Below, in pieces: positions 55,406 to 57,792 of a stretch of DNA of 64,000 bases; positions within the stretch are counted from its first letter, which is position 1, and each line of letters opens with the position of its first letter. This DNA comes from Pontibacterium granulatum (GTDB lineage: Bacteria > Pseudomonadota > Gammaproteobacteria > Pseudomonadales > Balneatricaceae), in contig NZ_JASBRH010000002.1 of the NCBI RefSeq assembly GCF_029961155.1, positions 186,001 to 250,000 of the forward strand. The letters run 5' to 3'. Position numbers and translations under genes: made by a program. The notes beneath the pieces were generated by a model. That model was not told the DNA's origin. It worked only from the letters and a program-made list of their open reading frames with translations, and did not search any database.

Positions 55406-56140
55406 TTGAATAGCGCTCTTCTTGCATTAGGACGCTCGATGGTTGGCAGTCTACGTGACCTGGCACCAATCATTCTTGTCATCGGATTTTTCCAAATCTT
55501 TGTTTTACAGCAGGGTGTGCCCGACTTTGTCGGACTCGTTGTCGGCTTGCTGTGTGTCGTCGCCGGACTGACATTTTTTATCTATGGCCTGGAGATGGGG
55601 TTGTTTCCTATCGGGGAAACCATGGCCCACTCCTTTGCCCGGAAGGGCAGTGTCATATGGCTCTTGGTCTTCGCTTTCTGCCTTGGCTTTGGCACGACGG
55701 TGGCAGAACCTGCCTTGATTGCGGTAGCGGATGAGGCTGCCAAGGTGGCTGCAACCGGGGGGATGATAGTTGACTCTGCAGAGGCGCGTGGCAGTTATGC
55801 AAGCGGTCTGCGATTTACGGTGGCGTTCTCTGTAGGCCTGGCGATTGTGCTGGGTGTACTGCGTATCCTTAAGGGCTGGTCGATCCAGTACATGATCATC
55901 GCCGGTTATATTATGGTGGTGATTATGACCATGTTTGCGCCACGCGAGATTATCGGTATCGCTTACGACTCCGGTGGTGTCACCACGTCGACTATCACCG
56001 TGCCGCTGGTGACTGCGCTGGGTGTGGGCTTGGCGTCTTCTATTGAAGGGCGCAACCCGATGACTGATGGTTTTGGTTTGATCGCTTTTGCTTCGCTGAC
56101 ACCTATGATCTTTGTCATGGCTTACGGGATGGTGATCTGA
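55406..56140 (+). CDS. DUF1538 membrane protein, first half
   Basis: A 244-residue inner-membrane protein with about six hydrophobic segments, start codon TTG. It belongs to DUF1538, a family with no assigned substrate. Two signatures stand out: [18 protein letters not shown] and [20 protein letters not shown]. Both recur in the next gene product, so the two are paralogous halves that probably assemble together; in some bacteria they are one fused chain. It overlaps the second gene by one base. A PII-like and a CBS protein gene follow in the same operon, pointing to a transporter or channel gated by nucleotides. Confidence 0.85.
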
Positions 56141-56934
56141 TGGAATTCGTCATGCAATTGATCGACATTACCCTGGCCACCATCAAGGATGTGATTCCGA
56201 TTGCGGCGATCATCTTTGGTTTTCAGCTGTTTGTGATTCGGCGCCCGATCCCAAATGTAAAGCGAGTTGTGATTGGCTTTGCCTATGTTATTGTCGGGCT
56301 TGCGCTCTTTTTGCTGGGGCTGGATAAAGCGCTGTTTCCAATCGGTCGTTTGATGGCCGAACAGCTGACGAACCCGGAGTTCATCAGTCAGTGGAGCGAC
56401 AGTTTACCGGATGCTTTGCACTGGATGGACTACTACTGGGTGTTCCTGTTCGCATTTATGATTGGTGCCAGTACTACGATTGCCGAGCCATCGTTGATTG
56501 CGGTTGCGATCAAAGCCAACGAGGTGTCCGGTGGTGCGATTGGCGTCTGGGGCCTGCGTATCGCCGTAGCGCTGGGTGTTGCAGTAGGGATCTCGCTGGG
56601 TACCTGGCGTATCGTGACCGGTTATCCGATCCATTGGTTTATTATCGCCGGTTATATCGTGGTGGTGATTCAGACCGTGTGGGCACCGAAAATGATTGTG
56701 CCACTGGCGTACGATTCAGGTGGAGTAACCACATCCACGGTAACGGTACCGCTGGTGGCGGCACTGGGGCTGGGGCTGGCGGAAACCGTACCGGGGCGCA
56801 GTGCTCTGATCGATGGTTTTGGCTTGATTGCCTTCGCAAGTCTGTTCCCGATGATTACGGTGATGGGCTATGCACAGATTACAGAATGGTTGGCGAAGCG
56901 TGATGCGAAACTCCGCGAAACAGCGGATGCCTGA
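56140..56934 (+). CDS. DUF1538 membrane protein, second half
   Basis: A 264-residue paralogue of the preceding protein: segments GASTTIAEPSLIAVAIKANE and [20 protein letters not shown] match the first copy at the same places, as does GFQLFVIRRP early on. It has an additional ~30-residue loop (MAEQLTNPEFISQWSDSLPD) after the third segment. The repeated T-rich SGGVTTST motif in the membrane could line a transport path. The ATG shares its A with the stop of the first gene, so the two halves would be made in equal amounts. Confidence 0.85.
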   Translation: MEFVMQLIDITLATIKDVIPIAAIIFGFQLFVIRRPIPNVKRVVIGFAYVIVGLALFLLGLDKALFPIGRLMAEQLTNPEFISQWSDSLPDALHWMDYYWVFLFAFMIGASTTIAEPSLIAVAIKANEVSGGAIGVWGLRIAVALGVAVGISLGTWRIVTGYPIHWFIIAGYIVVVIQTVWAPKMIVPLAYDSGGVTTSTVTVPLVAALGLGLAETVPGRSALIDGFGLIAFASLFPMITVMGYAQITEWLAKRDAKLRETADA

Positions 56935-56970
56935 CCATTATTTAGAGACGTAGAAAACGGAGAATTTGCC

Positions 56971-57321
56971 GTGCATTTCAAACTGTTAGTGGTGTTTGTC
57001 GAAGATACCAAAACAGAGCAGGTTATGAAGGCAGCGCGAGAAGCGGGTGCGACTGGCGCAACTGTCATCAATAACGCACGTGGTGAGGGTGTTACCAAAA
57101 CCAAAACGTTCTTTGGGCTGACTCTGGAAACCCAGCGTGATGTCCTGCTTTTTATTACTGAAGAGCACCTTAGTCGTAAGATTCTGGAAACAATTGGTGA
57201 GGTAGGGGGCTTTGATGATGCGCCGGGCCGAGGAATTGCGATTCAGCTGGATGTTGAAGATGCGGTGGGCGTAGCCCATCAGATTCAGACCCTGACCAAT
57301 GTGGTAGAGGAAGAGATATGA
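56971..57321 (+). CDS. PII-like signalling protein
   Basis: A 116-residue PII-fold protein with GTG start after GGAG. The ferredoxin-like core is readable: FKLLVVFVEDTKTEQVMKAA, a T-loop region INNARGEGVTKTKTFFGLTL, and LLFITEEHLSRKILETIGEV. It lacks the GlnB uridylylation Tyr, so regulation would be by ligand binding only. PII-like proteins next to transporter genes usually plug or gate the transporter in response to ATP/ADP, cAMP or bicarbonate. Here the partner would be the DUF1538 pair. Overlaps the CBS gene by four bases. Confidence 0.83.
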   Translation: MHFKLLVVFVEDTKTEQVMKAAREAGATGATVINNARGEGVTKTKTFFGLTLETQRDVLLFITEEHLSRKILETIGEVGGFDDAPGRGIAIQLDVEDAVGVAHQIQTLTNVVEEEI

Positions 57322-57716
57322 GCAGCGAAAAGAATGTTGTTCGAGTAAAAGACGTGATGACCCAGGACTTCGCAATGGTCGACGGACTGGTCACAATCAA
57401 GGATGCATTGGAGCTGTTCAGGCAGAAGCAGGTGAGTACTCTGCTGATCAACAAACGCCATGAGGACGATGAGTATGGCATCCTGTTGTTGTCAGACATT
57501 GCCAAGCAGGTGGTGGCTAAAGATCGTTCCCCTGAGCGCGTAAACGTCTACGAGGTGATGTCCAAGCCGGTGGTGTCCGTAGAGTCCCGCATGGATGTAC
57601 GTTACTGTGCGCGCCTGTTTGATAACTTTGGCCTGGGCCGTGCGCCAGTGATCGACAACGGTCAGGTGATGGGGGTTGTGAGTTACAACGATATTGTGCT
57701 GAAAGGTCTGATCTGA
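57318..57716 (+). CDS. CBS-domain protein of the DUF1538 operon
   Basis: A 132-residue two-CBS protein: DVMTQDFAMVDGLVTIKDAL with ILLLSDIAKQVV, and VYEVMSKPVVSVESRMDVRY with VMGVVSYNDIVLKG. CBS pairs bind AMP, ADP or ATP. As last gene of the operon, coupled to the PII-like gene by an ATGA overlap, it would add a second nucleotide-sensing input to the membrane protein. It is followed directly by a strong terminator. Confidence 0.92.
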   Translation: MSSEKNVVRVKDVMTQDFAMVDGLVTIKDALELFRQKQVSTLLINKRHEDDEYGILLLSDIAKQVVAKDRSPERVNVYEVMSKPVVSVESRMDVRYCARLFDNFGLGRAPVIDNGQVMGVVSYNDIVLKGLI

Positions 57717-57734
57717 TCAGAATACTGGGCAAAT

Positions 57735-57773
57735 AAAAAACGGGCTCTGACCTTGCGGTCGAGCCCGTTTTTT
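57735..57773. terminator. Terminator of the DUF1538 operon
   Basis: AAAAAACGGGCTC pairs with GAGCCCGTTTTTT around a 13-base loop that itself can pair (GACC/GGTC). It lies between convergent genes and should work in both directions. Confidence 0.92.
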
Positions 57774-57792
57774 GTGCTTTCTCAACATCGTA

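Follow-up and report, generated by a model that had tools for sequence, protein, structure and literature searches.

The window analysed here is a 64,000-nucleotide stretch of the Pontibacterium granulatum genome (assembly GCF_029961155.1, contig NZ_JASBRH010000002.1, positions 186,001 to 250,000). A listing of its open reading frames combined with Pfam searches revealed four genes in a row on the + strand, at 55406-57716. In this order, they encode a pair of membrane proteins with DUF1538, a PII-like protein and a protein with two CBS domains. The first membrane protein, hereafter UmpA-like, comprises 244 aa and begins with a TTG start codon (55406..56140). The TGA stop of its gene overlaps by 1 base the ATG of the gene for the second, UmpB-like protein (56140..56934, 264 aa). 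A gap of 36 bases, between 56934 and 56971, precedes the PII-like gene (56971..57321, 116 aa, GTG start), which shares a 4-base ATGA overlap at 57318-57321 with the CBS gene (57318..57716, 132 aa). The operon is followed by a rho-independent-type terminator, a hairpin with a T-run, on the + strand at 57728..57778. This hairpin folds at -30.2 kcal/mol, and 0 of 200 shuffles fold as well (z -7.4); its stem carries a bulge, and a simple terminator scan did not pick it up. An earlier note on this DNA, made without database searches, had described a four-gene DUF1538-DUF1538-PII-CBS operon whose junctions measure 1, 36 and 4 bases and which has one terminator; this description proved exact to the base.

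The genes flanking the operon, a DUF3549 gene on one side and a DUF446 gene on the other, both lie on the - strand. A sigma-70 promoter scan found 0 promoters, where 2.3 were expected by chance. Riboswitch control was considered and rejected, with no Rfam match at E <= 1 between 54500 and 58500.

The DUF1538 pair and its linkage to a PII-like gene

Both membrane proteins reach the gathering score of DUF1538 (PF07556), with 232.6 and 228.9 bits against 22.6 (E values of 3.8e-69 and 5.3e-68). They share 113 identical residues out of 232 aligned, which bears out their earlier description as paralogues, and they are encoded by the only DUF1538 genes found in this genome. The two subunits can be told apart with the NCBIfam models of UmpA and UmpB (NF041627, NF041628), which match nearly over their full length: the UmpA-like protein scores 380.9 bits with UmpA and 178.6 with UmpB, the UmpB-like protein 374.1 bits with UmpB and 195.1 with UmpA. 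The locus therefore has the subunit composition of UmpAB, namely adjacent paralogous DUF1538 genes, one UmpA-like and one UmpB-like. The best named matches of the UmpB-like protein are from Pontibacterium sinense (92%), an Oceanospirillaceae genome (92%) and a Marinobacterium (90%), and many of the named relatives are marine genera.

An AlphaFold2 model of the UmpA-like protein is helical throughout (mean predicted local distance difference test score, pLDDT, of 86.2). In an alignment of 45 sequences, A100, E101 and P102 are invariant, and the conserved A100-E101-P102-A103 motif (55703..55714, + strand) coincides with a break at residues 100-101 between helices 83-99 and 102-117. A second, ten-residue motif, Y187-T196 (55964..55993, + strand), is invariant in the same alignment, D188 included; DSSP analysis of the model places a helix break at 193-197, which starts within the DSGGVTTST motif, five residues past D188. 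Ion sites in secondary transporters often show such helix breaks. Both the AEP and the DSGG-type motifs are present in 378 of 384 single DUF1538 open frames, a count in which a few loci appear twice and from which L001, L002, L048 and weak or partial domains were excluded. Among 55 fused DUF1538 chains, 51 carry two AEP motifs and 45 a single DSGG-type motif. An internal repeat within UmpA was also sought; HHalign comparison of the N-terminal and C-terminal halves gave a probability of 0.5% and nothing was found.

The earlier note regarded this system as likely undescribed and knew of no assigned substrate. This is not supported, since a 2017 paper had already presented a DUF1538 pair of Halomonas zhaodongensis, named UmpAB, as a two-component Na+(Li+,K+)/H+ antiporter (PMC5484666). 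UmpAB was discovered by selection in Escherichia coli KNabc, a strain without its main Na+/H+ antiporters. Co-expression of UmpA and UmpB rescues this strain, both subunits are needed for full function and for rescue at 0.2 M NaCl, the two proteins co-immunoprecipitate, and Na+(Li+,K+)/H+ antiport was measured in everted vesicles.

The genomic environment of DUF1538 genes was then surveyed, with PII and CBS neighbours called by profiles built from the first loci. Among close relatives, taken as the best 80 of 295 named matches, a PII gene lies directly 3' of the DUF1538 pair in 80/80 loci and a CBS gene is present in 79/79. In the phylum sample, DUF1538 was sought in 398 genomes and found in 126, against 0 of 14 control genomes. 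Clusters were taken from 120 of these 126 genomes, not including all second copies; the window genome and five genomes with fragmentary DUF1538 matches (G156, G218, G236, G269, G272) were excluded. A PII gene is found directly 3' of DUF1538 in 118 of the 124 evaluable clusters, three more ending with the contig or locus, while CBS is present in 66/115. One of the six clusters counted without PII, in L184, has a PII start that runs into masked bases. The order sample (57 of 293 genomes matched) consisted of 34 loci from 32 genomes chosen by score and not at random, together with L248 and L249, two loci of phylum-sample genomes. Here, PII follows directly in 35 of 38 clusters and CBS is present in 23; as regards the other three, one cluster of L219 (a locus that overlaps L128 of the phylum sample) and that of L220 have PII upstream, on the other strand in L220, and L248 is the phylum locus L162 again. 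Six of eight matching plasmid records were examined, with PII present in 6/6 and CBS in 0/6. Second copies of the system (L266-L269) also have PII. The DUF1538-PII arrangement is thus far beyond chance, and the lack of linkage elsewhere that the earlier note had named as the finding that would speak against it was not seen for PII. The same note had inferred control by two soluble sensors; in these surveys PII is near-constant and CBS is optional.

Co-occurrence was analysed with a profile specific to the PII subfamily, which matched 127 of 396 genomes at E <= 1e-6. Both genes are present in 120 genomes, DUF1538 alone in 6, PII alone in 7 and neither in 263, so that 120 of the 133 genomes holding either gene hold both. 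The sets behind the two counts are two genomes apart, and relatedness among the genomes means that the p-value of the test cannot be taken literally. Among the genomes with DUF1538 only, G172 has a masked PII gene, G281 ends inside a PII gene (L179), and the DUF1538 matches of G218, G236 and G272 are fragmentary; in G245 (84% complete), no PII lies nearby. As for the genomes with PII only, G256 and G259 have weak matches (5.5e-8 and 5.6e-7), G117, G129, G145 and G181 are 95, 75, 96 and 76% complete, and in G022 (99% complete) PII adjoins a gene for electron transfer flavoprotein (ETF)-quinone oxidoreductase.

The linkage extends from Pseudomonadota to Bacillota (Clostridia), with variations in architecture. 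In five Clostridia plasmid records (L114-L118), UmpA and UmpB are fused into one chain, some 500 residues long, and the PII protein that comes next has at least double length. The second PII domain is clear in 5/5; for the first, the scores are 24-39 bits in four records and only 5 in L116, and Pfam shows one or two P-II stretches in these chains. A divergent fused DUF1538 type of about 600 residues has PII wherever the contig is long enough, with no CBS gene in the loci seen. Two systems occur in tandem in L214 and L215, with PII both before and after the UmpAB pair. The only UmpB of the order sample over the NCBIfam cut-off of 500 belongs to L214 (500.3 bits, its UmpA scoring 417.6 against 490), in the order PII-UmpA-UmpB-PII-CBS-[fused UmpAB]-PII-CBS. 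The core unit is UmpA, UmpB and PII, and CBS is an addition. Fusions of PII with CBS or of UmpB with PII were sought as proof of contact, and none was present among the tabulated loci, where the fusions are UmpA-UmpB and PII-PII.

Other features were observed around these loci. In L223, L224, L227 and L229, the PII open frames are 382-444 residues long and contain two or three PII stretches, most of them weak. A SpoIIE-type phosphatase gene lies 3' of the 600-residue DUF1538 type in 11 loci (L180-L182, L184-L186, L188-L191, L209), as called by Pfam in L185 and L191 and by homologues elsewhere. In L219, L235 and L147, from three genomes of one family, UmpAB-PII adjoins a gene whose product has a Castor/Pollux ion-channel domain, or a homologue of this gene. 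In a single locus (L137:5188-6699), a Na_H_Exchanger-TrkA_N gene is located just 3' of the CBS gene on the same strand. DUF1538-linked PII genes are found near an ETF-quinone oxidoreductase gene in L126, L159 and L011, the last showing the gene end only.

Residues of the PII-like and CBS proteins

Few signal transducers are as widespread as the PII proteins, whose canonical GlnB/GlnK members carry a T-loop Tyr for uridylylation, a Lys or Arg in the B-loop and C-terminal Arg residues. The PII-like protein of the operon reaches the score of the PII superfamily (PF00543, 35.5 bits against a cut-off of 25). A Foldseek search of its structural model against the PDB returned 205 matches at E <= 0.001 with PII proteins on top, including CPII and the SbtB of the SbtA-SbtB complex (7egk). 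The model has a pLDDT of 75.6, falling below 50 in residues 38-46 of the T-loop (57082..57108, + strand), within the conserved ARGEG...KTFFGL region. The earlier note had reported that the uridylylation Tyr is missing; the sequence in fact contains no Tyr at all, and no Cys. Residue conservation was assessed on 193 sequences of the subfamily, 34 of 226 homologues being excluded at <= 60 bits. A36-R37-G38-E39-G40, T46-F47 and G49-L50, in the T-loop region, are highly conserved, as is G86-x-G88 of the B-loop (G86 in 173/193, G88 in 190/193). The residue that follows is Ile, Val, Leu or Met in 192 sequences, with a gap in one, where canonical PII proteins have Lys or Arg. The protein hence differs from GlnB/GlnK in having no Tyr, no B-loop Lys/Arg and an Arg column that is not kept, and ATP is not to be assumed as its ligand because the B-loop Lys/Arg is replaced by these residues. 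The operon gene is not the nitrogen PII of this genome, since two further PII genes on another contig score far higher with Pfam P-II (120.6 and 112.8 bits); in this genome, the subfamily-specific profile matches the operon gene alone. In the surveyed genomes, three PII matches contain an in-frame stop codon within the matched stretch (G041:C108, G101:C80, G181:C133).

The CBS protein contains no other Pfam domain than CBS (67.4 bits), in two stretches, the last ending at residue 127, in agreement with its first description as a two-CBS protein. Its best solved relative by sequence is CBS-CP12 (5nmu, E 3.5e-25). In 110 of 132 family sequences, retained after excluding short and weak ones, D51, K83, P84 and G119 are invariant. 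The S/T-x-x-D motif, the ribose-binding pattern of CBS domains, is mostly retained in the second domain (S/T in 90/110, D in 72/110); at the S/T position of the first domain, Leu or Val is found in 88/110 sequences and Thr in 18/110. The CBS start codon overlaps the PII stop codon in 74 of 78 close-relative loci, as an in-frame ATG in 69 and GTG in 5 (ATGA or GTGA).

A candidate PII-controlled antiporter and its alternatives

On balance, we give about equal weight to belief and doubt in the proposal that the operon encodes an UmpAB-type monovalent cation/proton antiporter that is regulated after translation by a PII-like protein of its own. The idea of a transporter encoded together with a dedicated PII-like protein, already put forward in the earlier note, is supported by the surveys. 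We infer the gating itself from linkage, co-occurrence and fold, and the direction of control, ligands and stoichiometry could be as follows. UmpA and UmpB would form a membrane pair, as shown for the Halomonas homologue, with the PII-like protein, probably a trimer, beneath the membrane. The PII T-loop (residues ~38-55) may insert into the cytoplasmic side of UmpAB and block or lock it, as SbtB does with SbtA and GlnK with AmtB. This grip could be loosened or tightened by a small ligand sitting in the cleft where PII subunits meet; AMP, cAMP or a different small nucleotide or anion would be likelier than Mg-ATP, because the phosphate-clamping residues of canonical PII are missing. In many Pseudomonadota, the CBS protein may add an adenine-nucleotide (energy-charge) input. 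UmpAB has been described as a heterodimer; if gated by PII, it would be predicted to form a trimer of heterodimers, since PII partners so far seem limited to transporters able to act as trimers, according to a 2023 review (PMC10710835).

In its fullest form, which we hold more tentatively, this would be the first PII-gated cation/proton antiporter, a widespread system distributed from Pseudomonadota to Clostridia. A dedicated PII with a non-ATP ligand site, joined in many Pseudomonadota by a CBS energy sensor from an overlapping gene, would jointly switch Na/K-proton exchange by metabolic state. The published UmpAB would then be the unregulated half, obtained from a fragment with only umpA and umpB of such a set. 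If true, this would mean that the homeostasis of ions and pH is coupled directly to metabolic state through a PII-gated antiporter.

Several points, given in this paragraph and the next two, weigh against control of an antiporter by PII. Similar antiport claims have been published for the unrelated RDD, MFS, UPF0118 and CDF families, and they reportedly come from the same group as the UmpAB paper. Antiport by DUF1538 proteins is known from that single paper (PMC5484666). The scores of 380.9 and 374.1 bits lie well under the equivalog cut-offs of 490 and 500 bits (NF041627, NF041628), and the window pair is for this reason filed as DUF1538/UmpAB-like and not as an equivalog. A known antiporter fold was also sought: the UmpA model has no Foldseek match in the PDB at E <= 0.001, which leaves no known fold from which to deduce how transport would work, and the top VIA-align hit reached Z 5.6 over 68 residues. 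The single study, the low scores and the missing Foldseek match would equally suit a PII-gated DUF1538 pair whose natural substrate is other than Na+/Li+/K+ for H+, for instance bicarbonate or a Na+-coupled organic solute, the salt phenotype in E. coli being a side effect of overexpression. Bicarbonate is indeed carried by SbtA-SbtB, the best-studied PII-like/transporter pair (PMC8352866). We nevertheless judge another substrate rather unlikely, given that both subunits are required for KNabc rescue at 0.2 M NaCl, that antiport was measured in everted vesicles, and that one model of pH preference places DUF1538, alongside Mrp, Kdp and Trk families, among the 20 gene families that predict pH best (PMC13255231).

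Other points concern the PII-like protein. Among 13 loci in which a subfamily PII was found and DUF1538 was absent from the examined stretch, five (L251, L252, L257, L260, L263) have PII adjoining, or at most 1 kb from, an ETF-quinone oxidoreductase gene, and the genome of L252 itself is without DUF1538. This enzyme is a possible second partner of the PII subfamily. In two genomes, G084 and G116 (L264, L265), a PII-CBS pair lies directly 3' of a malic enzyme-phosphotransacetylase gene, apart from UmpAB, which in these genomes has no PII neighbour. Five phylum-sample clusters (L124, L162, L164, L178, L205) have room for PII and none present. Because some copies adjoin ETF-quinone oxidoreductase and malic enzyme-phosphotransacetylase genes, PII may have other targets, which goes part of the way towards the unrelated partner that the earlier note had set against its own proposal. 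The PII-like and CBS proteins could accordingly be energy or carbon sensors for such targets, for example malic enzyme or quinone reduction, and have no more than their expression in common with the antiporter. We find this unlikely in view of the joint presence of both genes in most genomes holding either and of an adjacency that spans Pseudomonadota to Clostridia; moreover, the gating of transporters by PII proteins is an established phenomenon, and glnK occurs linked to amtB (PMC10710835).

The absence of the B-loop Lys/Arg and of the C-terminal Arg, the Arg column not being kept in the profile alignment, is a further point against PII control, as is the absence of Rfam riboswitches at gathering scores from 48 further loci out of about 250 collected. 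The altered phosphate-binding positions could mean that the PII-like protein serves the UmpA-UmpB heterodimer as scaffold or assembly factor and senses no ligand. The conservation of the T-loop region and of G86-x-G88 is unlike an inert scaffold, and PII is not needed for UmpAB assembly in E. coli, since a subclone of H. zhaodongensis umpA and umpB alone was active there (PMC5484666); we consider a scaffold very improbable.

Comparison with known systems

The operon combines a known kind of arrangement, PII beside a transporter, with a known, little-studied antiporter family, and the DUF1538-PII linkage looks new. No paper linking PII to UmpAB was found in the open-licence PMC literature, which is no proof of absence. 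The closest system is UmpAB of H. zhaodongensis, which likewise consists of adjacent paralogous DUF1538 genes in the same subunit order with nearly full-length model matches. The window pair differs in scoring below both equivalog cut-offs and in being directly followed by PII and CBS genes, which go unnamed in the UmpAB paper: the main text mentions neither PII, P-II nor CBS, and besides umpAB the cloned 4.2-kb fragment contained a permease gene and a truncated gene for a transporter (PMC5484666).

For the PII-gated transporters listed in the 2023 review, the substrates are ammonium, nitrate/nitrite, urea or bicarbonate (PMC10710835). As with amtB-glnK in that review, a PII gene is paired in the window with a membrane transporter; here, the transporter family is different and the PII protein has neither the uridylylation Tyr nor the B-loop Lys/Arg. 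The likeness to SbtA-SbtB is in gene order, a transporter gene followed by a PII-like gene, and in fold, SbtB being among the structural matches; our T-loop docking model is borrowed from this pair, whose PII-like control of a bicarbonate transporter is described in PMC8352866. The PII-like gene of the window is not itself an SbtB, as its neighbour is DUF1538 and not SbtA, and an extra CBS gene is present. With no Cys, the protein also lacks the CGPxGC loop that the same source reports for some SbtB proteins. Finally, the CBS protein has its closest solved counterpart by sequence in the cyanobacterial CBS-CP12 (5nmu), from which it differs in having no CP12 tail, ending soon past its second CBS domain.

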